A stretch of DNA of 64,000 nucleotides from Lachnospiraceae bacterium. Its GTDB lineage: Bacteria; Bacillota; Clostridia; Lachnospirales; Lachnospiraceae. The DNA lies in assembly GCA_017434885.1 (NCBI GenBank), contig JAFSGE010000020.1, positions 33,375-97,374 of the forward strand. Direction: 5' to 3'. Made by a program: the position numbers and the translations under genes. Numbering within the stretch: position 1 is the first letter of the stretch; each line of letters starts with the position of its first letter. The notes under the pieces are model-generated. The model was not told where the DNA came from and searched no databases. It saw nothing but the letters and a program-made list of their open reading frames with translations. This document shows positions 2 through 13,886 of the stretch, piece after piece.

Positions 2-328
2 CATGAATGCGGAGATGTTGTGCTGAGCCGTGTGGCAGGTATTCTCGGTAAGAATATGCGCGGAAAAGGATTTGTAGCCAGATGGGGTGGGGAAGAATTT
101 TTGCTGGTATTTGAAAACAGTGTTTTTGAAGATTCGGTAGATATGCTTACTCACATTTTGGAAGAAATCAGAAGGGAAGAGATTTTCTATAAAGGAAAAA
201 TTGTCCGTATTACCATGACATTTGGTATTTGCAAGGGTAACACGGACAATGTAGACTTACTGATTCGTGAAGCAGACAGTAAGCTTTATGAAGGAAAAAA
301 TAACGGAAGAAATCAAATCGTACAATAG
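2..328 (+). CDS. Diguanylate cyclase GGDEF domain, C-terminal part (5' end outside window)
   Basis: The reading frame is open from base 2 and ends at TAG 326-328, so only the C-terminal ~108 residues are present. The frame begins with HECGDVVLSRVAGIL, which matches the GH..GD..L helix ahead of the active site, and then shows RWGGEEFLLVF, the GG(D/E)EF catalytic loop of diguanylate cyclases, which make cyclic di-GMP from two GTP. The end (YEGKNNGRNQIV) is the family's typical closing segment. Sensor domains, if any, lie upstream of the window. An internal GTG at 20 is not a credible start because it would cut into the domain. The gene ends tail-to-tail with the serine hydrolase, overlapping it by 16 bp. 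Confidence 0.88.
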   Translation, partial: HECGDVVLSRVAGILGKNMRGKGFVARWGGEEFLLVFENSVFEDSVDMLTHILEEIRREEIFYKGKIVRITMTFGICKGNTDNVDLLIREADSKLYEGKNNGRNQIVQ

Positions 329-1806
329 AGATGTCCGTTAAATTCCCGGAACAGGCTTTCTTCCTGTTTCTTCATAAAGACGGTAAGGTCATCATCACCA
401 AAGACCAGTTCGAAGTATACGCTTCCTACATAAGCATCAATAATATGTGCTTTGATATAAAGGGTGTTTTCGTTTACCCACAGACCGCTTGCGGCATACT
501 GTTGGTCGTAAATGGGAAAACATCCGGTAAGTAATGAATCAAAACCGAAGGAAAAGGAATAATCCTGTCCTTTTATACGGAATGATAATGTGCCGGCGGC
601 AAAATTGCTGCCGGCATTTTTATCGGATAACCTGTGGTCTGTCGATTCCTTTATGCTGTCGGATGTTTCAAAGGAAACAGAAACGGTTTCAAATCCCATT
701 GGATTTTCCGAAGCGGTATAAACACGGTTGTTGATACGATTGATATCAGGTGTAAAAGTGTTCGTGCTGCGAAGCGGTGTCATTTTCAAGTTGCTAAGAA
801 AATCGTAATACTCGCTTTGGGTGCCTGTGTTTACCGGAAGTGGTTGGCTACTGATGTAAGGAAGGATTTCTTCATACAAAGCGTCATATATCAGTTGATT
901 GCCGCCGCCGATTCCCTGAGTGTCTGCAGTGGTAATACAAATCATATCATAATCCGGCAGAAAGATAATAAGCTGACCGCCCATGCCGTAACAGCAATAA
1001 CCGCCTTTTTCGTTTCGCCAGAACTGATAGCCGTAACCCTGTGCCTCACTTAATACAGGAGCGGTCATGCGGGTATCGGAGAGATGGGAGGTGGCTTCTT
1101 TAATATACTCTGCAGAAAGAAGCTGTTTTCCTTCAACCATGCCATTGTTATAAATCAGATAAGCAAAACGGAGCAAATCCATGGTCGTTGCAACAAGTCC
1201 GCTGCCTCCCATGGATACGCCGAAAGGGTCGGTTATCATATATGATTCTGCTGAGAAGCCTAAAGGCGCCAGCTTCTCCTTTAAATAATCCAGCATGGGT
1301 TTGCCGGTGAGCTTCTCAACCAAGGCGCAAAGCGTATGGGGAGAAGAAGTATCATAATGAAATAATTTGCCTGCCGGATGTGTGGGTGTTACCGTAAAGA
1401 AGCTTTCTACCCAATCACTGCTTAAATCCTGTTTATAGGTAGTTGATGCGTGGCAGGTACGCATCATAAGCATATCACGGATGGTCATATCGGCGATATA
1501 GGGATGCACATTATCCGGCACCTTTTCCGGAAAGTGTGTTACGATTTTATCATCCAGAGAAAGTTTCCCTTCTTCCGCTAAAAGACCGATAGCAACAGAA
1601 GTAAAACTTTTGCTGACGGAAAACATACGGTGAAGCTTCTCCTTATAAAAGGGGGCATAATAGCCTTCTGTAATAATATGGTTTTTGTGAAACAAAAGAA
1701 TACTGTGCATGGGAACTTCGTGCCGCTTTAGACGTTTGATAAAATTTATAATGCATCCCGAGGGAATTCCTGTATTTTCAGGAAGTGTAGATTGAAATGT
1801 AAGCAT
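313..1806 (-). CDS. Serine hydrolase, beta-lactamase class C / penicillin-binding-protein-like
   Basis: A 497-residue protein of the beta-lactamase/esterase (AmpC-fold) family. The SxxK nucleophile motif is visible as SVSKSFTS near residue 70, followed by the expected helix (AIGLLAEEGKLSLDDKI), and FHYDTSSPH is a YxS/N-like second motif. A C-terminal ~150-residue extension follows the catalytic domain. I see no signal peptide, so it is probably cytoplasmic. The start is ATG 1804-1806, with GGAGGTT seven bases upstream; a longer reading to 1923 has no ribosome site. True substrate (peptide, ester or beta-lactam) cannot be read from sequence; such proteins are common in Lachnospiraceae and are not evidence of antibiotic resistance. 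Confidence 0.82.
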   Translation of the reverse strand: MLTFQSTLPENTGIPSGCIINFIKRLKRHEVPMHSILLFHKNHIITEGYYAPFYKEKLHRMFSVSKSFTSVAIGLLAEEGKLSLDDKIVTHFPEKVPDNVHPYIADMTIRDMLMMRTCHASTTYKQDLSSDWVESFFTVTPTHPAGKLFHYDTSSPHTLCALVEKLTGKPMLDYLKEKLAPLGFSAESYMITDPFGVSMGGSGLVATTMDLLRFAYLIYNNGMVEGKQLLSAEYIKEATSHLSDTRMTAPVLSEAQGYGYQFWRNEKGGYCCYGMGGQLIIFLPDYDMICITTADTQGIGGGNQLIYDALYEEILPYISSQPLPVNTGTQSEYYDFLSNLKMTPLRSTNTFTPDINRINNRVYTASENPMGFETVSVSFETSDSIKESTDHRLSDKNAGSNFAAGTLSFRIKGQDYSFSFGFDSLLTGCFPIYDQQYAASGLWVNENTLYIKAHIIDAYVGSVYFELVFGDDDLTVFMKKQEESLFREFNGHLYCTI

Positions 1807-1834
1807 AAATAACCTCCAAAATTTGTATAAAATG

Positions 1835-1863
1835 ATGATATCATAAACGGTAACTGTTGACAA
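1835..1863 (-). promoter_or_regulatory. Sigma-A promoter of the serine hydrolase gene
   Basis: On the minus strand TTGTCA (1858-1863), a 17-bp spacer and TATCAT (1835-1840) lie about 30 bp ahead of the start codon at 1806. Confidence 0.6.
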
Positions 1864-1930
1864 TATGCCATGGATTTGATATATTTTTTTACAATACGCA
1901 TTAATCTGGTATAAAAAATGCACAAATATA

Positions 1931-1996: not shown

Positions 1997-4207
1997 GTGA
2001 AAATACAGATTCCAAAAGCGAAAAAAGAAAAGACACCGAAAGTTCCAAAAGCTCCTAAAGCGCCGAAACTTCCGAAAGAAAAGAAGGAAGGAAAACTGCC
2101 GGTTGGGAAAAAGGCGAAAACAGACGGAAAGCAGAAACAGAATATAGCGAATGGTAAGCAGTCGGGATTTATGCTGTTCGGTATTCAGAATAAAATTGTT
2201 TTGTGCTTTTTGATTCCTATGATTTTTATGATTGTAATCGGATTGTCAGCTTATCAGAAAGCTGCAGGCGGTATGAGTCAGAAATTTCAGGAGTCAACCA
2301 TTCAGACCATTGATATGGTGAATGAGTACATAGACATGAGCTGTGCGTTTGTGGAATCGGAAGGTATGAAGTTTGCTTTTGATGCCAATGTAGGAAAATA
2401 CCTGAACGGTTCTGTTGAGAATGATCCGGTAGAAAAGATGAATGTGCTGAATGCCATTCAGGATGATCTGTTATCTGCACAGACCACAAACTCTTTCATT
2501 GACAATATACATATTGTAACCAAAGAAAACGTAAGCATGCTTACCACCGGAACAAGTACCAGTATCAAAGGTAATTTGTCTGAGTATCAGGAATTAATGT
2601 CGGCCGGTGCAAGAGGTGTAGTGAAGTGGGTAGATGACCATCAGATGCTGGAAGATTATCTGGCACTGAAAACAACAGACTATATTTTGGCTTACCAGAC
2701 AATGACTAAATCCAACAACGGATGTATTGTTATTGATGTTAAGGAATCTACCATTAGGGAATTTCTTGCAGATTTGGATTTCGGCGAGGGTAGTATTGTG
2801 GGTTTTGTTACTGCAAACGGCAAGGAAGTTATTGCAGAGCCTTTGGAAGAAGGACAGAGCAGCAGCGTTGCAGAAGGGGAAATTGTATTTTTTGATAAAG
2901 ATTTCTTTTCACAGATTTCCGAAGAGAATCTTCAAGGGTCCGGAGAAGTAAAGTTTAGAAACGAAGATTTTTTGTTTATGTATTCCAGAAGTGAAGAGAC
3001 GGGAGCTACCGTTTGTGCATTGGTTCCCATGAAAGTAATCACCGGACAGGCACAGGAAATTAAGAGCCTTACATTCGGACTGATTCTTCTTGCCAGTGTG
3101 ATTGCCCTTGGAGTTGGTATTTCCACCGTAATGGGAATACAGAATAACATGAAACGTATCTCCAAGAAATTCGGCGAAGTAGCCAAAGGCGATCTGACTG
3201 TAGAAATCACGGCAAAAGGCCGCGACGAGTTCCAGGGACTTGCCGGTTCGGCAACACATATGATTGTAAATACCAAGAAACTGGTAAATAAAGTAACCAA
3301 TGCCACAGAACAGCTGGAAGAATCCTCCAAGGGTGTTGAAGAAGCATCTGTTGTTATTAATGAATATTCAAACGAAATTACCAGAGCAATCAACGAAATC
3401 AACGAAGGTATCAGCAGACAGTCCAGACATGCACAGCAGTGCGTGGAACTGACAGATGTGCTTTCCGATGATATTCAGCAGGTCAGCCGTGTGGTAGAAA
3501 CAGTTGAGAAACTGGTTGACAGAACAGAACAGATGATTGAACAGGGTATTGAAATTGTAAAAGTACTTGGTGACAGGGCACATGAAACCACCGAAATGAC
3601 TGCTCAGGTATCTGATAGTATTGTAGCGCTTAAGAAAGAATCGGAAATTATCAATACTTTCGTAGAAACCATTACATCAATTTCTTCTCAGACCAATCTG
3701 CTTTCCTTAAATGCTTCCATAGAAGCGGCAAGTGCAGGAGAAGCGGGAAGAGGCTTTGCGGTAGTTGCGGAAGAAATCCGTAAGCTGGCAGATGATTCTG
3801 CGCAGGCGGCAGGACAAATCAGAAATAATGTTGCCAATATCGGTTCCCAGACGGCACAGAGTGTTGCCGTTGCCAATGAGGCACAGTCCATGGTTGCTCT
3901 GCAGACACAGGCAGTAGAAAAAGTGGTTACTGTGTTTGACGACATGCGTAAGCAGATGAATCAGCTGATTCAGGGCCTGAAAGATATTGTCGAAAATACT
4001 GAGAAGGCTGATGGTGAGAGAAGTGATACCGTGGAAGCGGTAAAGGACATTTCCAATATTATTGAAGAGACAGCCGGCAGTGCGGAAATTGTAAAAGACA
4101 TGGCTGAGAAACTTCTTGCCAATGTGGAAAAATTAAATAATACGGCAGATGTTCTCGGAGAAAACATGAAAGAACTTAAGACAGAAATTTCTGTCTTCAA
4201 GATATAA
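1997..4207 (+). CDS. Methyl-accepting chemotaxis protein
   Basis: A 736-residue transmembrane chemoreceptor. Order: a cytoplasmic Lys/Pro-rich tail (repeats of KAPK, residues ~8-40), TM1 (~66-86), a ~260-residue extracytoplasmic sensor region, TM2 ([19 protein letters not shown]), HAMP, and a long coiled-coil signalling domain with the conserved hairpin tip ([20 protein letters not shown]). No C-terminal CheR-binding pentapeptide is seen. The GTG start at 1997 is six bases after AGGAGG; an upstream in-frame GTG at 1973 has no such site. Its position just ahead of the oligosaccharide importer suggests, but does not prove, that it senses pectic sugars or the loaded binding protein. The basic N-terminal tail is unusual for this family. 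Confidence 0.93.
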
Positions 4208-4246
4208 AATACAAAAATGTAAAAAATTTGGTTTGTTTCATAAAAA

Positions 4247-4260
4247 TGTAAGCACTTACA
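4247..4260. promoter_or_regulatory. LacI/CcpA-type operator, distal copy (TGTAAGCACTTACA)
   Basis: The 14-mer TGTAAGCACTTACA is an inverted repeat with a CA centre, identical to the copy at 22019. It lies 171 bp upstream of the proximal copy at 4418, a geometry that would allow a LacI-family repressor to loop DNA. The binding protein is inferred. Confidence 0.65.
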
Positions 4261-4376
4261 GCACGGTTTTACAAAATTTTTAAATGTTTTTGGCAAAAAA
4301 AAGCCTTTCTTTGTAAAATTTTTATAGAAAAAGGTGAAAAAATAGTAAAAAAGTATAGATTTTTTATGTTTTTCTC

Positions 4377-4405
4377 TTGCAAAGAGCATTTGGATGTGTT
4401 ATTAT
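4377..4405 (+). promoter_or_regulatory. Sigma-A promoter of the solute-binding protein operon
   Basis: TTGCAA (4377-4382), a 17-bp spacer and TATTAT (4400-4405) predict a transcript start near 4412, giving a ~58-nt leader. Confidence 0.7.
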
Positions 4406-4417
4406 TTGTACAAGATG

Positions 4418-4431
4418 TGAAAGCACTTACA
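4418..4431. promoter_or_regulatory. LacI/CcpA-type operator, proximal copy (TGAAAGCACTTACA)
   Basis: TGAAAGCACTTACA, flanked by GATG..CATC that extends the symmetry to about 20 bp, begins some six bases after the predicted transcription start, a classical repression position. Same motif family as sites at 4247, 21872, 22019 and 39625. Confidence 0.72.
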
Positions 4432-4469
4432 TCAAAAAGAAAGTAAACCAATATTTTAAGGAGGTCTTT

Positions 4470-6104
4470 ATGAAAAAGAAATTAATTTCTATGCTTTTGA
4501 CAGCTGCTATGGTAGCTTCATTAGTAGGATGTGGCGGCGGCGCTGCTACAGAAGAAGCACCTGCTGCTGACACACAGACAGAAGCAGCTGCAACAGAAAC
4601 AAAAGAAGAAGCTCCTGCTGAAACAGAAGCAGCAGCTGAAGAGTACAAACTCGAATCCGTTAACATGGTAATCAACGGAACATTAACTGCAACAGTTGAC
4701 AACGGTCAGGCTGATTTCGAAAAGCAGTGGGAAGAAGCTGTAGGTGTTGACCTTATCATCCAGCAGTTAGACCACTCCGGTTACGTAGATGCAGTTGGTC
4801 GTCTCTTCGCAGGTGGCGATTATCCTGACGTAATCATCATGAGTGCTGATATGTATGCACAGTATGCTCCCACAGGTCTTCTTTGGGACATGACAGAAGC
4901 TTATGAAAACGCTGAATTCCAGGCAAGAATGACTCTTCCTGCAATCAACGAAAACCTTAAGAAAGACGGTAAGCTTTACGGTTTCGCTCCTACATACGGT
5001 AATGGTTGTGTTACTTATGTAAAGAAAGCTTGGTTAGACGCTGTAGGCCTTAACGCAGATGACATTAAGACATACGATGACTACTACAACATGCTTCTTG
5101 CATTCCACAACGAAGATCCCGATGGAAACGGAACAAAGGGTGACACATACGGTGTTGTAGCTGCTGGTTTCTTAGGAAACGAAGCTCCTTACATCAACTA
5201 CTTACCTGAATTCTGGCAGAATGCATATCCTGCAATCCTTCAGGGCTCTGACGGTGTATGGTATGACGGATTCCAGACACAGGAAACAAAGGATGCTTTA
5301 TTAAGATTACAGCAGGCTTACGCTGATGGCGCAATTGACCCTGAAACACTTACAGCATCTACAAAGATCGCTCGTGAAAAATGGTTCTCCAATGACCAGA
5401 CAGGTTCCTCAGGTGTATTCACATACTGGGCAGGTTCTTGGTATCAGACATTAACAGATAACCTTATTAAGAACGAAGTTGACGAAGAATTAGTACAGTT
5501 AGCACCTATCGCAGAAGTAGAAGCAATCGGTGGTTACCTCAACAGAGAAGCTCCCGTTTGGTGTATCATTGACGATGGTGACGGTGACAACGCTCGTGAA
5601 CAGGCTATCTTCGATGCATTCATCGAAACAATGATGGACGGTGATGTAGTTCAGACACTTTGGACATATGGTGCAGAAGATGTACACTGGTCCACAAAGG
5701 CTGAAAGCTTTGTAACTAACCCTGACGACCCTGACAAGAAGAAAGAATACAACTACGAAGAAGGTCAGTTCCACTTAAAACAGTCTCCTAACGACCCTAA
5801 CTCTGTATGGAAAAAGAACCATCTTGATCCTGCATTGGTAGTTTGTGAACTTACAAACGGTTTCGTTGATACAGCAGAATTAGCAGTAGCTGGTAACAAG
5901 TTCTTTACAGAGAACTGTATCGATGCTCCTATCTCTCCTGCATCTGAAACATACACAAACGAATCCGGTACTATTTATGATGCTAAGCTTGCAGTTGTAA
6001 CAGAAGTAGTTGTTAACGGCGGTGACGTTGACGCAGCTATGGATAACTATGTAGCAACAGTTGGTTCTATCATTGACCAGTGCTTAAGCGAATTAAATCA
6101 GTAA
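4470..6104 (+). CDS. ABC transporter substrate-binding lipoprotein (oligosaccharide, LplA/YtcQ-like)
   Basis: A 544-residue extracellular binding protein. The N-terminus is a lipoprotein signal peptide (MKKKLISMLLTAAMVASLVG) followed at once by the lipid-modified Cys (LVGC lipobox), then an Ala/Glu/Thr-rich linker to about residue 45, then a family-1 type sugar-binding fold. The next two genes are its permeases; no ATPase is encoded nearby, as is usual for this class, which shares a common MsmX/UgpC-like ATPase. Start ATG 4470 follows AAGGAGG. Codon use is sharply biased to AAC/GAC/TAC/ATC endings compared with neighbours, a sign of very high expression. Context (acetylesterase, GH43, GH28, GH105) suggests rhamnogalacturonan or homogalacturonan oligomers as cargo. 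Confidence 0.92.
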   Translation: MKKKLISMLLTAAMVASLVGCGGGAATEEAPAADTQTEAAATETKEEAPAETEAAAEEYKLESVNMVINGTLTATVDNGQADFEKQWEEAVGVDLIIQQLDHSGYVDAVGRLFAGGDYPDVIIMSADMYAQYAPTGLLWDMTEAYENAEFQARMTLPAINENLKKDGKLYGFAPTYGNGCVTYVKKAWLDAVGLNADDIKTYDDYYNMLLAFHNEDPDGNGTKGDTYGVVAAGFLGNEAPYINYLPEFWQNAYPAILQGSDGVWYDGFQTQETKDALLRLQQAYADGAIDPETLTASTKIAREKWFSNDQTGSSGVFTYWAGSWYQTLTDNLIKNEVDEELVQLAPIAEVEAIGGYLNREAPVWCIIDDGDGDNAREQAIFDAFIETMMDGDVVQTLWTYGAEDVHWSTKAESFVTNPDDPDKKKEYNYEEGQFHLKQSPNDPNSVWKKNHLDPALVVCELTNGFVDTAELAVAGNKFFTENCIDAPISPASETYTNESGTIYDAKLAVVTEVVVNGGDVDAAMDNYVATVGSIIDQCLSELNQ

Positions 6105-6137
6105 TTTGCAAAATGAATAATTAATTTCTTATGTGGT

Positions 6138-6164
6138 GGCTGCCCTTGCAGTAGCAGGGCAGCC
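6138..6164 (+). other. Intercistronic stem-loop after the binding-protein gene
   Basis: GGCTGCCC (6138-6145) and GGGCAGCC (6157-6164) form a perfect 8-bp GC-rich stem with an 11-nt loop and no U-run behind it. Such hairpins commonly protect the abundant binding-protein mRNA and limit downstream permease expression. Confidence 0.65.
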
Positions 6165-6281
6165 ATTCATAGAGATTAACATGAAATATTGATGGGAATG
6201 CTTTCTGAGACCGCCATATACTCCGGCGGCCAAAAAAGAATGGAGTAGCTGATAAAGGGATTAAGAAAGGAAGAAAACGGT

Positions 6282-7244
6282 ATGAGTAAAAAAGTAGTAA
6301 TGACATCGACAGGTGTACCGGTACGTGAAAAACCTTTAGGACTTCGCATCTGGAACAACCGGGGATATTATTTAATGTTTTTACCGGTTTTTATATTTGT
6401 ATTATTGATTAACTATTGGCCTATGCTTGGCGTACGCTATGCATTCTATGACTACAAGCCGGTAGGTGAGCCTGTATTCGTAGGATTAAAGCATTTTCAA
6501 AAGTTATTTGAAACGGATGCATTCTGGAATTCATTTACAAACACATTGGAACTGAGTATTATGAGATTGATTCTTACCAATGTGGCATCCATTGTAGTAT
6601 CCGTATTCTTAAATGAAATGGGAAATTTAGTTGCAAAGAAGACTTTGCAGACATTAATATATCTGCCTCACTTTATGTCATGGGCAGTAGTAGCATCTAT
6701 CTTCAGTTTGTTGTTATCACCTTCCGCAACAGGTATGGTGAACGGTTGGTTAAAAGACCTTGGTGTAATTCCTGCAGATCAGATGGGTATTTATTTCCTT
6801 GCTGATTCCAAGGTTTGGAGACCTATTTTCTACCTGATTAATATTTGGAAGGAAACAGGTTGGGGAACCATTATCTTCCTGGCAACCTTATCAGGTATTA
6901 ACCCTGAACTTTACGAAGCAGCAGATATTGACGGTGCTACCAGACTTCAGAAGATTCGTTTTGTAACCATGCCTGCACTTGCTAATACCATTATTACCGT
7001 ATTAGTACTGAATCTGGCTAAGGTTCTTAACATGTTTGAACCTGTATTCGTATTGTACAACAATGCAGTATATGATGTGGCTGACGTTATTTCCACATAT
7101 ATCTATCGCCAGACATTTGCAATCGCACTTCCGAACTACGGTTATTCCACAGCAGTTGGTTTGTTCCGTTCCTTAGTAGGTGGTGCACTGGTAATCCTTT
7201 GTAACTGGCTGAGTAAAAAAGTCCGTGGACGCGGAATCGTATAG
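6282..7244 (+). CDS. Sugar ABC transporter permease, LplB family
   Basis: A 320-residue inner-membrane subunit with six predicted membrane spans (first: YLMFLPVFIFVLLINYWPML). The EAA loop that docks to the ATPase is visible as ELYEAADIDGATRLQKIRFV. The phrase GVRYAFYDYKP after span 1 is characteristic of LplB-type permeases that pair with YtcP-type partners. The gene sits 177 bp after the binding protein and 11 bp before the second permease, so the three form one operon. An AAAGGAAG ribosome site precedes ATG 6282. Substrate is inferred from context as pectic oligosaccharide. Confidence 0.92.
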   Translation: MSKKVVMTSTGVPVREKPLGLRIWNNRGYYLMFLPVFIFVLLINYWPMLGVRYAFYDYKPVGEPVFVGLKHFQKLFETDAFWNSFTNTLELSIMRLILTNVASIVVSVFLNEMGNLVAKKTLQTLIYLPHFMSWAVVASIFSLLLSPSATGMVNGWLKDLGVIPADQMGIYFLADSKVWRPIFYLINIWKETGWGTIIFLATLSGINPELYEAADIDGATRLQKIRFVTMPALANTIITVLVLNLAKVLNMFEPVFVLYNNAVYDVADVISTYIYRQTFAIALPNYGYSTAVGLFRSLVGGALVILCNWLSKKVRGRGIV

Positions 7245-7255
7245 GAGGGAATGAC

Positions 7256-8122
7256 ATGGCAAAGGAAAAAGTGGTTTATAAGCCCAAAAAGAAAAAAATT
7301 CAGTTATTTGACGTTGTCAATTATATCGTGTTTATCATTCTCGGATTACTGATTATGGTTCCTATTTGGAAGGTACTTGTTGACTCCTTGAATCAGGTAG
7401 GTGTTTATCAGTTCCGTTTATGGCCTGAACAGTTTACTGTTGACGGTTACAGAGTAATTATTGAGACAGAAGCATTATACAGACCGTTTGTTAACTCTGT
7501 TGTAACAACTATCTTAGGTGCGTTGCTCGGTTTGGTATTATCCACACTTGGTGGTTATGTACTTGCACAGAAGACATTGCCCGGACGTGATTTAATGGCA
7601 TACTTCCTGTTATTCACCATGATTTTCTCCGGTGGTATGATTCCTGAGTACTTGGTTATGAAAAACCTTGGATTGGTTAACAGTATGTGGATTTTAGTTG
7701 TTAAGCATGGTATTAATGTTTACAACTTAGTTCTCATGAAGAACTTCTTTGAAAACATTCCTGAAAGCCTTTATGAGGCTGCAAGAATTGACGGATGTAC
7801 CCCTGCAGGTATTTTCATCAAAATCGTGCTTCCTCTTTCAAAAGCAGCACTTGCTTCCATCGGACTTATGTTTGCGGTAGCAGTATGGAATGACTATACC
7901 AACGTTAAGATTTATATTACTGACCCTACACAGGTTAACTTCCAGTATAAACTGAGAAACATGATTATGGACGGTGATACACCGACAACAGCTTACTCTG
8001 TATCTCAGACAACCCTGTTCAACGCAGGTATCGTAGCAGCGGTACTTCCTTTCATGGCATTGTATCCGTTCTTACAGAAGTATTTCGTACAGGGTGTAAA
8101 TATCGGTGCTGTTAAGGAGTAA
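7256..8122 (+). CDS. Sugar ABC transporter permease, YtcP/MalG family
   Basis: A 288-residue partner permease with six predicted spans (first: VVNYIVFIILGLLIMVPIW) and the EAA docking loop SLYEAARIDGCTPAGIFIKI. The start is ATG 7256 after TAGGAGGG, and the stop at 8122 is four bases before the acetylesterase start, indicating tight co-translation. A Lys-rich N-terminal cytoplasmic tail precedes span 1. Together with the LplB-type subunit it forms the heterodimeric channel of a type I importer driven by an ATPase encoded elsewhere. Confidence 0.92.
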   Translation: MAKEKVVYKPKKKKIQLFDVVNYIVFIILGLLIMVPIWKVLVDSLNQVGVYQFRLWPEQFTVDGYRVIIETEALYRPFVNSVVTTILGALLGLVLSTLGGYVLAQKTLPGRDLMAYFLLFTMIFSGGMIPEYLVMKNLGLVNSMWILVVKHGINVYNLVLMKNFFENIPESLYEAARIDGCTPAGIFIKIVLPLSKAALASIGLMFAVAVWNDYTNVKIYITDPTQVNFQYKLRNMIMDGDTPTTAYSVSQTTLFNAGIVAAVLPFMALYPFLQKYFVQGVNIGAVKE

Positions 8123-8126
8123 ACCC

Positions 8127-8816
8127 ATGGCAACAATTTATTGGGCCGGTGATTCCACCGTACAGTACAATGACATAACAACATATCCGCAGACCGGAAT
8201 AGGTCAGGTTCTTCATCTATATTTGAAGCCGGATGTGAAAATATCAAATCATGCCAAGAACGGCAGAAGTACCAAAAGCTTTATTGATGAGTCAAGGGTA
8301 CCGGCTATCTATGATGCGATTACGGAAGGTGATTTTCTTTTCATTCAATTTGGACATAATGATGAAAAGATACAGGATTCTACCAGGTATACAGAACCTT
8401 ATTCAGATTTTATGATTAATTTGGAGAAGTTTGTAAATGTGGCGCGAAATAAGAAGGCATTACCTGTTTTGATTACCCCTCTTGAGAGAAGAAATTTCGA
8501 CGGGCAGGGTAAACTGACACCGGGATTTCACGGAGACTATGTAAAAGCAATGAAGCAGACTGCCGTGAACTTAGATGTTCCGTTAATCGATTTATATACT
8601 ATGAGTCGAGAGGAACTGACAAAAGCAGGAGATGCGGAAAGCAAAAGCTGGTATATGAATTTCCCGGCAGGTAAATATTCCTCCAAACCGGAAGGCTCCG
8701 AAGATAATACACATTTGCAGTATGCAGGTGCAGTAAGATATGCAGGATGTGTGGCAAAAGGGCTTAAGGAATTAGGTGGAGTATATAAGGATTTGTTGTT
8801 AGATGAATTAGTATAA
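8127..8816 (+). CDS. Rhamnogalacturonan acetylesterase (SGNH hydrolase, CE12-like)
   Basis: A 229-residue SGNH-fold esterase. The nucleophile block is GDSTVQ (Ser10), the oxyanion Asn is in GHNDE (residues 76-80), and the catalytic Asp/His pair is DNTH (Asp193, His196). The GDSTVQ variant is characteristic of rhamnogalacturonan acetylesterases such as RhgT/YesT, which remove acetyl groups from galacturonate in rhamnogalacturonan I. No signal peptide is present, so it acts on imported oligomers. ATG 8127 is seven bases after AAGGAG inside the previous gene's end; the upstream TTG reading is not needed. Last gene of the importer operon, before a hairpin. Confidence 0.88.
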   Translation: MATIYWAGDSTVQYNDITTYPQTGIGQVLHLYLKPDVKISNHAKNGRSTKSFIDESRVPAIYDAITEGDFLFIQFGHNDEKIQDSTRYTEPYSDFMINLEKFVNVARNKKALPVLITPLERRNFDGQGKLTPGFHGDYVKAMKQTAVNLDVPLIDLYTMSREELTKAGDAESKSWYMNFPAGKYSSKPEGSEDNTHLQYAGAVRYAGCVAKGLKELGGVYKDLLLDELV

Positions 8817-8858: not shown

Positions 8859-8894
8859 GTGTAATTAAATATTATTTGTAAAGGAGTGTACAAA

Positions 8895-10472
8895 ATGGAA
8901 CGTTTGTGGAAATCTGATTTAGGTGACGGTAATTTTAAGAATCCGATTTTGTTTGCGGATTATTCCGATCCGGATGTGATTCGTGTGGGAGATACATTTT
9001 ATATGACGGCATCCAGCTTTAACTATATTCCGGGGTTGCCGATATTGACATCTAAGGATTTGGTGAACTGGAAACTTGTGAATTATGCACTTGAAAAGAT
9101 TGATTATGATAAATATGATATTCCGCAGCATTCCAAGGGAGTATGGGCACCTGCAATCCGTTATCATGAAGGCAGATTCTATATATACTATGGTATGCCG
9201 GACGAAGGTTTCTTTATGGTAAGTACTACAGATCCGCTTGGCAAGTGGGATGAACCGGTACTGATTTTGGAGGGAAAAGGACTGATAGATTCCTGTCCGT
9301 TTTGGGATGAAGACGGTAAGGCTTATCTGATTCACGGATATGCCAAGAGCCGTATCGGTTTTAAGAGTTATCTTGGTATTTTTGAAATGAATCCGGAGGG
9401 AACCAAGGCCATTACAGAAGACCATATTCTTTACAACGGTGTGGAAACACAGCCAACCATTGAAGGGCCTAAGGTGTATAAGCGCAACGGATATTATTAC
9501 ATATGGGCACCGGCAGGTGGTGTAAAGACCGGATGGCAGACGGTTCTTCGCTCCAAAAACATTTACGGACCTTACGAAGAAAAGATTGTAATGATACAGG
9601 GAAATAGTGAGACAAACGGACCTCACCAGGGTGGCCTTGTTGATACGGTTAATGGTGATGAATGGTTTATACATTTTCAGGATAAAGGACTTTACGGAAG
9701 AATTTGTCACCTGCAGCCTGTTACATGGGAAAATGACTGGCCAGTTGTAGGTGTTAATGCTAAGGACGGCTGTGGTGAACCATGTATTATCCACAAAAAA
9801 CCGAATACAGGAATTACGGAAGAACCATGCTATTTGGAAGCATCTGATGACTTTGAAAGTGACAAATTGAACTTGTTGTGGCAATGGCTCGGAAACAGCA
9901 AAGAAGAATTTTCTTCTCTTACGGAAAAGCCCGGTTCACTGCGTTTGTACGCATTGAATCCTTCAGGAAGAGAAGATGCTATTTTATGGGAATGTGCCAA
10001 TGTTTTGACCCAGAAACTGGTTTGCCCCTATTTTGATGCAACTACCTGTGTAGATGTGGCTGCTTTATCCGATAATGGTCAGGCCGGAATGACGATGATG
10101 GGTGGACATTATGCTTATCTGGCAGTCAGAATGATTGATGGAAAAAAGAAACTTGTATTTGCCAAGGCGTATGATGAAGGAAATGAAGTGAAAGAAGATG
10201 TGAAAGAATTAGCAGTTCTTTCCGATACACAAAACCAGGTTTGGTTTAGTGCACGCATGGAACAGGGCGAGAGTGGTCCTGTGTTTAAGATGTTTTATGA
10301 ACTTACCGAAGGAGTGCGGGTAGAAGTAGAGACAGATTTTATGCCATCAGACCATACATGGGTAGGAGCAAAAATCGGACTTTTTGCAAATGCGTTGGGA
10401 ATGGAAAGCGTGAATGGAAGCGTAAAATGCGGATATGCAGATTTCACCTATATTCATGTAAAAGCGTTATAA
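8895..10472 (+). CDS. Glycoside hydrolase family 43 with C-terminal beta-sandwich
   Basis: A 525-residue GH43 protein. The five-bladed propeller starts with the catalytic base motif (FADYSDPDVIRVGD), continues with GVWAPAIRYHEGRFYIYYG, the pKa-modulating Asp in IDSCPFWDEDGK and the general-acid Glu in IEGPKVYKRNGYYYIWAPAG. A C-terminal ~200-residue concanavalin-like domain (after about residue 310) is typical of beta-xylosidase/arabinofuranosidase members resembling subfamily 12. No signal peptide, so cytoplasmic. ATG 8895 follows AAGGAG with correct spacing; the GTG at 8886 overlaps that site. In this pectin context it probably trims arabinose, xylose or galactose side chains; exact linkage cannot be read. 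Confidence 0.86.
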   Translation: MERLWKSDLGDGNFKNPILFADYSDPDVIRVGDTFYMTASSFNYIPGLPILTSKDLVNWKLVNYALEKIDYDKYDIPQHSKGVWAPAIRYHEGRFYIYYGMPDEGFFMVSTTDPLGKWDEPVLILEGKGLIDSCPFWDEDGKAYLIHGYAKSRIGFKSYLGIFEMNPEGTKAITEDHILYNGVETQPTIEGPKVYKRNGYYYIWAPAGGVKTGWQTVLRSKNIYGPYEEKIVMIQGNSETNGPHQGGLVDTVNGDEWFIHFQDKGLYGRICHLQPVTWENDWPVVGVNAKDGCGEPCIIHKKPNTGITEEPCYLEASDDFESDKLNLLWQWLGNSKEEFSSLTEKPGSLRLYALNPSGREDAILWECANVLTQKLVCPYFDATTCVDVAALSDNGQAGMTMMGGHYAYLAVRMIDGKKKLVFAKAYDEGNEVKEDVKELAVLSDTQNQVWFSARMEQGESGPVFKMFYELTEGVRVEVETDFMPSDHTWVGAKIGLFANALGMESVNGSVKCGYADFTYIHVKAL

Positions 10473-10534
10473 AAAGAGCATGTTTATCGTGAAGATGTTG
10501 TTTGGGAAGAATGAAATTGCAGGAGGCGGATGGG

Positions 10535-12478
10535 ATGACGTTACAACAGGCGATTGAAACTGAAAATTTAGCGGAAGTAACAAGGATTCTGGTGGAAAAT
10601 CCACCTTGTATCGATGATAAAAATGAAGAAGGTATTCCTTTATGCCTATATGCGGCAAAAGTGGGAAATTTCGAGATTGTGAAGTATATCGTGGAGTACT
10701 CCCGTGCCAGTATGAATACAGTGGATGATAATAACAGAAATATTCTGCATTACGGAGCAATGTCAGGAAATGTTAAATTAAACCGATATTTAGTTGAAAA
10801 GGTTGGCATGAGTATTGCATCAGGAGACAGAAACCTGGTTACGCCTTATCAGATAGCGTATGAAATGGGACATAAGGAACTACTTGCTTATTATCAGGAA
10901 GCGGTAGGTGCGGCATATGAGGATATGTACCATAATCCTATTCGTACGGGAATGTTCCCTGACCCTTCTATTGTAAGGGTTGGAGAGGATTATTATATGG
11001 TGAATTCATCCTTTATCTTTTTCCCCTGTATTCCGGTTTCCCACTCCAAAGACCTGATTCATTGGGAAATTATCGGTCATGCCATTACCAATCCGAAGTG
11101 GGCGAATTTGGATGAACTGGAGGGCGGAAGAGGATATTGGGCGCCGGATATTTCTTATGATGACGGTACCTTTTATATTACGGCAACCTATCGTTTAAAT
11201 GATACAGGAACGGTTTACAGAAGACAAATTGTGGTTTCTTCCGATAAACCGGAGGGACCTTACAGTGAACCTGCATACATTGAAGAAGATGGAATTGATC
11301 CTTCTATTTTCCATGAGGATGGCAGACATTATATGCTGCTGAATCGCGGTGCAAGGATTTTTGAACTTTCTTCGGATTGTAAAAAACAGATTTCTGAGGC
11401 TTCGTTATTATATTATGGAGATCAGAAGCGTGCACCGGAAGGACCCCATATTTTGAAAAAAGACGGATATTATTATCTCTTTTTGGCAGAAGGAGGTACC
11501 GGACCGGGACACCGCATTTCTGTTGCCAGAAGCAGAGAGCTTATGGGCAATTATGAACCTTGTCCCTATAATCCCATTATGCGGCAGATGGATGAAAAAG
11601 CAGGAATTCAAAGATGCGGACATGGCAAGCCTGTTTGTACCCAGAATGGGCAGTGGTATATGGTATATCTCTGTGGCCGTATGATTGGAGAGGGATATAG
11701 CATTTTAGGAAGGGAGACTGCTCTTGACCCTATCACATGGACTGCTGACGGCTGGCCGATAGTAAACAATTTGGATGGCCCCAGTGTGCTTCAGATAAAG
11801 CCGGAGTTGCCGGAAAATATAATTAGTGCAAAAGAAGTGCAAAAGGGTATCTTTGTGGATGGATTGCCGAAGGAGTTTATTACACCAAGACCACCGGAAG
11901 AAGATGCCATTTCCTTTGAGAATGGCTGTCTTGTGTTAAAGGGAAGCAAGGCGCCTCTTAGCAGCGTGGATTCCAGAAATATACTGGTGAGACGACAGAC
12001 TGCATTCTGCTTTGAAGCAGAATCTGACTTTATTGTACCTGATTTGAAAGATGGACAGGAAACAGGACTTACCTGTTATTATGATGAAAATACATGGGTT
12101 TGTTTTTATGTTTCCAAGAAGGAAGAAGAATATTTTCTGCAAATCAGAGAGCATATCGGAGCGGAAGATATTTATCATGAGCGCAAAGTAATTGAAAATC
12201 CGGTAGGATGTAATTACTGTTTTGGCGTACATGCGGAATATTTGCAGAGAAACTTTTACTACCGGGTGCTTGATGATGTACAGAATAAAGGCTGTGTGAT
12301 AAAAGCAGATGAAGACAATCAAAATTTTGAAATGCAAACGCTTGATAATGTGTATTATCTTTGTGATGAAGGCATACGTATGGGCAAACGTTTTACCGGT
12401 GCCATGGTAGGAATTTACGGTTATGGCAGGGAAAATCCGTTGTATGTAACCTTTACGGATTTCAGATATCGTGAGTGA
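10535..12478 (+). CDS. Ankyrin-repeat / glycoside hydrolase family 43 fusion
   Basis: A 647-residue two-part protein. Residues ~1-125 are ankyrin repeats (cores such as GIPLCLYAAKVGNFEIVKYI and NRNILHYGAMSGNVKLNRYL); residues ~130-420 are a GH43 propeller with base Asp143 (MFPDPSIVRVG), GYWAPDISYDDGTFYITATY, the modulating Asp in DGIDPSIFHEDG and the acid Glu in RAPEGPHILKKDGYYYLF, followed by a beta-sandwich to the end. No signal peptide. The start is placed at ATG 10535, eight bases after AGGAGG; ATG 10511 is the alternative and adds eight residues. Ankyrin repeats mediate protein contacts and are rare on bacterial glycosidases, so a scaffold or partner-binding role is inferred. Co-directional with the GH43 gene 62 bp upstream. 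Confidence 0.85.
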   Translation: MTLQQAIETENLAEVTRILVENPPCIDDKNEEGIPLCLYAAKVGNFEIVKYIVEYSRASMNTVDDNNRNILHYGAMSGNVKLNRYLVEKVGMSIASGDRNLVTPYQIAYEMGHKELLAYYQEAVGAAYEDMYHNPIRTGMFPDPSIVRVGEDYYMVNSSFIFFPCIPVSHSKDLIHWEIIGHAITNPKWANLDELEGGRGYWAPDISYDDGTFYITATYRLNDTGTVYRRQIVVSSDKPEGPYSEPAYIEEDGIDPSIFHEDGRHYMLLNRGARIFELSSDCKKQISEASLLYYGDQKRAPEGPHILKKDGYYYLFLAEGGTGPGHRISVARSRELMGNYEPCPYNPIMRQMDEKAGIQRCGHGKPVCTQNGQWYMVYLCGRMIGEGYSILGRETALDPITWTADGWPIVNNLDGPSVLQIKPELPENIISAKEVQKGIFVDGLPKEFITPRPPEEDAISFENGCLVLKGSKAPLSSVDSRNILVRRQTAFCFEAESDFIVPDLKDGQETGLTCYYDENTWVCFYVSKKEEEYFLQIREHIGAEDIYHERKVIENPVGCNYCFGVHAEYLQRNFYYRVLDDVQNKGCVIKADEDNQNFEMQTLDNVYYLCDEGIRMGKRFTGAMVGIYGYGRENPLYVTFTDFRYRE

Positions 12479-12533
12479 TTGCGATTATTTCACCTTGCTG
12501 CAAAATGCAAATGAGGTGTGAGGAGTTTTTGTG

Positions 12534-13886
12534 ATGGCGAAAAAGATAAACAGAGAATTGATATTAAGCGGAAATATGCTAAAGGCTATTCTGACACTTG
12601 CCATTCCGGTGGTGATTAACAGTTTTCTTCAGACAATGTATAATCTGACAGACACATACTGGCTTGGAAAGCTGGGAACGGAAGAACTGGCGGCGATTAA
12701 TCTGGTAACCCCGGTACAGAATATTGTGATTAATTTCGGTACGGGAATTACAGTGGCGGGTTCTGTTTTGATTGCGCAGTATCTCGGTGCAAGAAAAGAT
12801 GAAGAAGCAAAAAGTATGGCGAATCAGATTTTTGCCAGTGCCATGATTTTTGCCGTGGTTTGTGCAACGTTATGTGCAGTGTTGACTCCAAGTATCGTAA
12901 CCTGGCTGGGAGCGGAAGGGGCAACATGGCAGAACGGAAAAACTTATCTGCAGATTGTAATTTTGGATATGCCCTTTTTGTTTACGGTGAATCTCTATGC
13001 GGCAATTAATCAGGCACAGGGGGATACGCTTCGTCCCATGCTGTTAAATTTGGTGGGAATTGTCGTTAATATGATTTTGGACCCGCTTCTGATGGTAGTG
13101 TTTGCCTTGGGAGCAGCAGGAGCAGCGCTTGCAACAGTGAGCTCCAAATTGTTGATTGCGGTGATAGCGTTTGTATTGTTACATAATCGGAATAAGGATG
13201 TATATTTGCAACTGTCTAAACTGAAATTTGAAAAAGAGAAGTTGAAAAGTATTCTTACAATAGGGCTTCCGACGGCTATCGGCGGCAGCACAATGCAGTT
13301 TGGATTTTTGTTGATGACAAGAAATGTATTAAAATACGGAACACAGGCTATGGCGGCATATGGAATCGGAAATAAAGTAAATGGTCTTATTTCTTTGCCG
13401 TCCAACGGTATCGGCTCTGCAGTGGCTACGATTGTAGGACAAAATGTGGGAGCTGAGCAGCTTGAGAGGGCGGATTACGGATATAAGCTGTCTCGAAAGA
13501 TGATTGTAATCTTTTTGTTTGCAGGCGGTATGATTTTATCAAGAAAACCGATTTCGACAGCTATAGTAAGTATCTTTTCCGATGACATGGAAGTGATTGC
13601 CATGGCGGCAGAATTTTTAAGTATCATGGCATTTTGTGTGTTTACCAACGGTATCTACAATACTACCATGGGACTGTTTCAGGGAAGCGGCCATACGGAA
13701 GTGACAATGATAATTGATGCATCCAGGTTGTGGGTGTTTCGCTTTGCAACATTGTTTGTCTGTGAATATCTTCTTCATATGGGAGTTCAAAGTGTTTGGT
13801 ATTCGGTGGTGGTCAGTAATGCCATTTCTGCATTGCTGCTCTGGGTTGTATATAAGACCGGATATTGGAGAAAAAAGAGAGGATAA
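12534..13886 (+). CDS. MATE family multidrug/sodium-coupled efflux transporter
   Basis: A 450-residue membrane protein with twelve predicted spans in two homologous halves. The N-terminal signature (LTLAIPVVINSFLQTMYNLT then DTYWLGKLGTEELAAINLV) and the second-half repeat (ILTIGLPTAIGGSTMQFGFL) identify the MATE family. ATG 12534 lies eight bases after AGGAG; GTG 12531 is an alternative. It is the last gene before a strong terminator and lies 55 bp after the ankyrin-GH43 gene, so it may be co-transcribed. The substrate is unknown; a link to pectin catabolism is positional only. Confidence 0.9.
   Translation: MAKKINRELILSGNMLKAILTLAIPVVINSFLQTMYNLTDTYWLGKLGTEELAAINLVTPVQNIVINFGTGITVAGSVLIAQYLGARKDEEAKSMANQIFASAMIFAVVCATLCAVLTPSIVTWLGAEGATWQNGKTYLQIVILDMPFLFTVNLYAAINQAQGDTLRPMLLNLVGIVVNMILDPLLMVVFALGAAGAALATVSSKLLIAVIAFVLLHNRNKDVYLQLSKLKFEKEKLKSILTIGLPTAIGGSTMQFGFLLMTRNVLKYGTQAMAAYGIGNKVNGLISLPSNGIGSAVATIVGQNVGAEQLERADYGYKLSRKMIVIFLFAGGMILSRKPISTAIVSIFSDDMEVIAMAAEFLSIMAFCVFTNGIYNTTMGLFQGSGHTEVTMIIDASRLWVFRFATLFVCEYLLHMGVQSVWYSVVVSNAISALLLWVVYKTGYWRKKRG

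Follow-up and report, generated by a model that had tools for sequence, protein, structure and literature searches.

The Locus and Its Genes

The window (the whole stretch of DNA that was analysed, 64,000 nucleotides from a Lachnospiraceae bacterium) contains a gene for a GH43 glycosidase that begins with ankyrin repeats and that is referred to here as Ank-GH43b or GH43b. This gene would be the last enzyme gene of an operon for oligosaccharide uptake encoding a solute-binding protein, two permeases, a GDSL esterase, GH43a, and Ank-GH43b (Table 1). The gene directly upstream, separated from the Ank-GH43 ATG by 62 bp, had been described in an earlier sequence-only reading as a second, ankyrin-free GH43; this is borne out by Pfam, which also revealed a GH43_C2 domain in it. 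The putative solute-binding protein had no confident match in the Pfam scan and is distantly similar to solute-binding proteins in the PDB. The likeness of the GDSL acylhydrolase to PaeY is distant, its PaeY score being far under the PaeY cut-off.

Table 1. Features of the Ank-GH43b locus (window coordinates)
Feature	Position	Strand	Basis
Importer solute-binding protein (putative)	4377..6104	+	Lipoprotein-like start, judged by eye
ABC importer permease A	6282..7244	+	Gene order and sequence; homologues at related loci
ABC importer permease B	7256..8122	+	Gene order and sequence; homologues at 55/67 ankyrin-bearing loci
GDSL acylhydrolase	8106..8816	+	Pfam; distant rhamnogalacturonan acetylesterase/PaeY likeness
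GH43a, ankyrin-free GH43 + GH43_C2, proposed partner	8886..10472	+	Pfam; fusions elsewhere
AGGAGG ribosome-binding site for ATG 10535	10521..10526	+	Sequence; 8 bases upstream of ATG
Ank-GH43 protein (GH43b), 647 aa	10535..12478	+	ORF list and Pfam; homologue starts
Ankyrin module, residues 1-125, four helix pairs	10535..10909	+	Ank_2; AlphaFold2
GH43 catalytic domain, residues about 132-408	10928..11758	+	PF04616
Lys365	11627..11629	+	Aligns with Lys in 6MS2, Ser in K247S mutant 6MS3 (B. licheniformis BlXynB)
GH43_C2 beta-sandwich, residues about 443-646	11861..12472	+	PF17851, E 4e-25

Architecture of Ank-GH43b

The coordinates 10535-12478 and the start given in the sequence-only reading are correct: the ATG at 10535 is preceded, eight bases upstream, by AGGAGG, and close homologues, whose starts were chosen by a nearest-ATG rule, share the start residue. 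The assignment of residues 1-125 to ankyrin repeats was confirmed in the Pfam search by Ank_2 (E 3.7e-18; 66.3 bits against a Pfam cut-off of 27.3), which places at least two repeats there. A predicted structure without an ankyrin solenoid had been named beforehand as grounds for rejecting this assignment, but AlphaFold2 modelled four ankyrin helix pairs (residues 3-8/12-21, 36-43/46-55, 70-77/80-90, and 104-111/114-124) at block pLDDT values of 93-98. The fold-search rows cover residues 130-647 almost exclusively, and we base no statement about an ankyrin fold match on that search.

In comparisons with four relatives, the differences in the ankyrin codons lie mostly at third positions (0.15, 0.08, and 0.42 at codon positions 1, 2, and 3 for L002 versus the window), a bias which shows both translation of the ankyrin part and selection on it. 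A chance ankyrin match is rejected on the basis of the Ank_2 E value, the structure model, and the codon-position bias. A true start after the repeats, the other objection raised beforehand, is unlikely given the ribosome-binding site, the same third-position bias, and the internal position of the ankyrin part in four fused open reading frames (see below).

The rest of the protein had been described as a complete GH43 domain with three acidic residues. This is right as regards the catalytic domain, which matches PF04616 over its whole length (profile 1-288 of 288; E 1.3e-79; 268 bits against a cut-off of 32.2) and therefore belongs to GH43, and as regards the acids, D143, D255, and E302, but the GH43_C2 domain had been overlooked. 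Inspection by eye reveals no signal peptide in Ank-GH43b, in agreement with the earlier remark on secretion.

The mean pairwise identity over 83 rows (a set without L026 and the three fused proteins then known) is 0.36, 0.55, 0.59, and 0.43 for ankyrin repeats 1-4, compared with 0.79 for GH43 and 0.44 for C2; the central repeats (2 and 3) are better conserved than C2, and the outer ones (1 and 4) are not. The best-conserved ankyrin residues (Y51, E54, Y55, S56, S59, Y85, and E88, each in 90-99% of the 83 rows) are presumably, by ankyrin numbering, mostly on the outer helix and the loop that follows it, and not at the concave tips, which we take to be the usual partner-binding site.

Such a distribution of conserved residues is what might be found if the ankyrin module acted within its own chain or in a homo-oligomer, packed rigidly against the GH43/C2 body, where it would influence how the subunits assemble or how the active site is reached. 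The AlphaFold2 model points in the same direction: a linker of six residues separates the last ankyrin helix (124) from the first GH43 strand (131), and the full-length model has a pTM of 0.88. By a rough estimate, this value requires that the ankyrin part be placed relative to the body with a mean error of about 6-9.5 angstrom, whereas the pTM would be about 0.77-0.82 with a freely floating ankyrin part. Because the short linker and this pTM also fit packing on the protein's own enzyme, the earlier statement that the ankyrin part "must bind" a partner was too strong. Moreover, ankyrin conservation is nearly independent of the position of GH43a, the identities of repeats 2/3 being 0.64/0.64 with GH43a adjacency and 0.59/0.66 and 0.67/0.70 without it. 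However, a purely intramolecular role leaves the fusions with GH43a, and the loss of repeat 1 in them, unexplained; furthermore, both the ankyrin-free sister clade and BlXynB do without an ankyrin module. We consider this role, the chief alternative to the docking proposed below, possible but rather unlikely.

Catalytic Residues and Substrate

A catalytic Asp, Asp, Glu triad is described for GH43 in PMC7809346. Motif mapping assigns this triad to D143, D255, and E302, which are kept in 86, 85, and 85 of the 86 ankyrin-bearing rows, both misses being X. Since the three acids and His363 are conserved in 85-86 of these 86 rows, catalysis by Ank-GH43b is likely, and the protein is predicted to be an active, probably intracellular and exo-acting, GH43 enzyme.

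The closest solved relative of Ank-GH43b is BlXynB of Bacillus licheniformis (6MS2; K247S mutant, 6MS3), with 43% identity and 421 bits, which, unlike the window protein, has no ankyrin module. Wild-type BlXynB was reportedly inactive owing to Lys247, and K247S is said to have restored activity. The aligned lysine, Lys365, is retained in Ank-GH43b, which raises the idea that the protein is catalytically silent, or weak on its own, and that its role is to scaffold or regulate GH43a. This we regard as very improbable: the conservation of the three acids and His363 argues for catalysis, and the lysine, found in 83 of the 86 ankyrin-bearing rows, is shared by 7 of the 9 rows of the ankyrin-free sister group, which makes it a trait of the clade, perhaps one that adjusts specificity. 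The question of Lys365 bears on the activity of an entire GH43 clade. In the more distant GH43 rows, position 365 is Ser or Asp in 6 of 7, as against a nearly fixed Lys in the clade.

A table in PMC11432564 that cites the BlXynB paper classes Q65MB6 as GH43_12, and we infer that Q65MB6 is BlXynB. The structure 7JVH, which is titled GH43_12, is more distant from Ank-GH43b than BlXynB is (161 versus 421 bits). The scores against the NCBIfam equivalogs AbnA and AbnB, 32.4 and 30.2 bits, are below their cut-offs of 480 and 750. As to the substrate, the likeness of the GDSL neighbour to acetylesterases of rhamnogalacturonan or pectin is a weak pointer, and the relatives of the GH43 enzymes suggest xylan or side chains of arabinose; with pointers that diverge in this way, the earlier label of hemicellulase/pectinase is not supported as it stood. 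From the nearest relatives, one may guess that GH43a releases arabinose and that GH43b releases xylose or arabinose. Among known enzymes, GH43A and GH43B of the Bacteroides ovatus xyloglucan PUL (5JOW and 5JOZ) are named non-reducing-end alpha-L-arabinofuranosidases; they differ from Ank-GH43 in having no ankyrin module and in their Bacteroides PUL context.

Distribution of the Ankyrin-GH43 Combination

The fusion of ankyrin repeats to a GH43 enzyme had been called unusual, and so it is, but it is not unique: in a survey of 74 related loci fetched by similarity, 67 have an ankyrin match. The seven others comprise a locus cut by a contig end (L061), a fragment (L067), and distant ankyrin-free enzymes (L069-L073). 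The related loci are labelled mostly as Lachnospiraceae or other Clostridia (the order Lachnospirales is deduced from these labels), and a few are from MAGs labelled Solobacterium, Bacteroides, Alistipes, Bacillus, or Thermoflexaceae. In the family sample, 21 of 299 genomes have ankyrin-GH43; this number includes the window's own genome, one case split over two contigs, and G194, which was counted on the basis of its fused open reading frame. In the order sample, 27 of 295 genomes in five family groups have it when only matches that begin near the profile start are counted, which leaves out the later-starting matches in G519 and G529. At the phylum level, it was found in 2 of 398 genomes (E<=1e-100), both from the window's own family, and ankyrin-free relatives are present beyond this family.

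A quick tree was built from 102 rows, and the 86 with an ankyrin part all fall together in it (SH-aLRT 99). Nine ankyrin-free enzymes are sister to this group, and the presence of the ankyrin part needs a single change on this tree, which has long branches, 23 of 95 inner forks drawn open, and four pairs of identical rows. As judged from these sequences, ankyrin-GH43 is a conserved family in Lachnospirales and not a one-off. A side observation concerns L160 (G529, 4044-6166), where the ankyrin part and GH43b are in two overlapping frames; either the gene is truly split or the sequence contains an error.

An ankyrin search of the same bacterial family returned 30 loci, of which 12, including that of the window, encode the Ank-GH43 protein. 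The 18 others share Ank_2 repeats with it; in the ten of these that were scanned, the protein is plain ankyrin or has an M48 peptidase or PIN domain, and none has a glycosidase domain. No published account of an ankyrin-glycosidase was found among the matches listed in the PMC literature, a collection outside which most subscription papers fall. The passages on ankyrin proteins and GH43 genes in a Flavobacterium paper treat the two separately and mention no fusion (PMC6801697); the other ankyrin and glycosidase papers among the matches listed in PMC are fungal, do not concern bacteria, or lack the term "ankyrin repeat".

GH43a as a Neighbour and Co-Occurring Gene

Ankyrin-bearing loci were labelled by their neighbours at 87 places, which include the window and L026 (the latter is absent from the tree); these labels depend on our own distance cut-offs and on contig reach. 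GH43a is directly upstream on the same strand in 39 of the 87; it is fused in 3, split-fused in 1, and on the other strand in 8, with 9 other arrangements. A fourth intact fusion, in G1050, comes on top of these 3. In the remaining loci, the nearest scored upstream gene encodes the GDSL protein (14) or a permease (13). Moreover, among the 67 ankyrin-bearing loci fetched by similarity, homologues of permease B occur at 55 and of GDSL at 46. One might therefore think that the ankyrin part tethers the enzyme to another product of the operon, for instance to the GDSL esterase or to the importer on its cytoplasmic side, and that incoming sugars are thereby cut on entry. However, such a gene order is to be expected anyway in an uptake operon, and no fusion to a transporter or an esterase was seen at the loci read, which makes a tether of this kind improbable.

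Among the 299 genomes, GH43a (E<=1e-90) is present in 18 of the 21 with ankyrin-GH43 compared with 18 of the 278 without it (Fisher p 3e-16). The three misses at this threshold are G041, G253, and G277; in G041, a weaker GH43a (42%) adjoins at L116, and in G253, there is no GH43a within the 11 kb read (L129). GH43a is also found in all 7 genomes that have only the fetched ankyrin-free sister enzyme and in 5 of the 43 with other GH43 matches. These 43 include G039, which has a shorter match (50% identity) and no GH43a. Since the genomes with the ankyrin-free sister also have GH43a, co-occurrence may mean only a shared pathway, and we reject it as proof of contact.

By our reading of gene places, which draft contigs limit in both groups, 13 of the 21 ankyrin-bearing genomes have GH43a in an adjacent or fused position (split in one of them), as against 1 of the 7 with only the ankyrin-free sister (G196). 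In G1005, a single contig, the GH43a and Ank-GH43b genes are some 9 kb apart. Among the nine earliest-branching rows of the quick tree, eight have GH43a adjacent, fused, or split-fused.

Natural Fusions of GH43a to Ank-GH43b

GH43a, the ankyrin part, and GH43b form a single open frame in four genomes from four genus groups: G045 (1142 aa, measured between stops), G271 (1131), G194 (1189), and G1050 (1163). There is no stop inside these frames, the single TAA counted in G045 being, by its coordinates, the terminal stop. An assembly artefact is unlikely given four genomes, four genus groups, and, in the case of G271, a single-contig genome. In G045, G271, and G1050, a permease gene and then a GDSL gene precede the fused gene, an order that is also that of the window; in G194, no GDSL or permease match was found in the 12 kb read. 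Two related observations are that the G194 protein (L127, 4648-8214) has about 50 extra residues near its last ankyrin repeat and that in the draft genome G093 (L128, 4003-7447) GH43a-Ank-GH43b is seemingly split by a frame break, an intact fused copy being present in G1050 of the same genus group.

In three of the fusions (G045, G271, and G194), the ankyrin match begins at query residue 27-31, that is, at about repeat 2, some 5-15 residues after the end of the GH43a C2 domain. Ankyrin repeat 1 is thus missing from the fused chains, with the end of GH43a in its place. The unfused rows L129, L130, and L131 likewise match only from residue 20-40, so a shortened ankyrin part is not unique to fusions.

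On the free quick tree, the fused versus unfused state needs three changes. However, the score rose by 15 log units (p-AU 0.681) when the fused and split rows (L125-L128) were constrained to a single clade, which makes one fusion event the simpler reading. It also shows that the quick tree is not the best one and that its early branches need care. The fusions may therefore go back to one event; several independent events are not established. An alignment of GH43a, GH43b, and the fused rows (A2) was set aside since its ankyrin-GH43 rows, being only 25-31% identical to the fused row, were probably placed on the wrong half. The structure model of the fused protein is poor (pLDDT 62.5, pTM 0.41), and no interface is visible in it. 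The best PDB match of GH43a is the bifunctional GH43-CE of Bacteroides eggerthii (6MLY), in which, as in the natural fusions, a GH43 is joined to another enzyme; it differs in that its partner is, by name, an esterase and in that no ankyrin linker is named.

A Proposed Docking Role for the Ankyrin Module

The fusions are the strongest evidence for GH43a and Ank-GH43b working side by side, an arrangement that they suggest at the level of sequence, and the ankyrin module is a natural candidate for the contact with GH43a. We tentatively propose, with slightly less than even confidence, that this module holds GH43a and GH43b together in the cytoplasm behind the ABC importer. The module would dock GH43b onto GH43a, probably at the end of the C2 domain, which replaces ankyrin repeat 1 in the fused proteins, and branched oligosaccharides delivered by the importer would then encounter both glycosidases, which complement each other, within a single particle in the cytoplasm. 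Against such docking, ankyrin conservation appears about alike with or without GH43a adjacency, many loci are not adjacent, and genes may fuse without prior contact. The physical assembly suggested in the sequence-only reading is, for this pair, genuinely supported by the natural single chains that combine both enzymes, whereas the contact between separate chains is something that we infer. A stronger version of the docking proposal, in which the two proteins jointly form a single enzyme for the branched oligosaccharides taken up and in which GH43b, with its Lys at the position of BlXynB Lys247, is fully active only when touching GH43a, would be a long shot.

The known assemblies of glycosidases, such as cellulosomes, are mostly extracellular. 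If docking is real, fibre-using gut bacteria would have another solution in the form of a conserved glycosidase pair in the cytoplasm. The natural fusions offer ready-made single-chain constructs for testing the pairing of GH43a and GH43b.

Other Genes around the Locus

Directly downstream of Ank-GH43 is a gene for a MatE-family exporter (window 12531-13886), a homologue of which (at least 68% identity) is just downstream in 26 of the 67 ankyrin-bearing loci fetched by similarity. On the minus strand, at window 313-1923, is a gene of the beta-lactamase family (PF00144), which has homologues at 31 of the 74 related loci.
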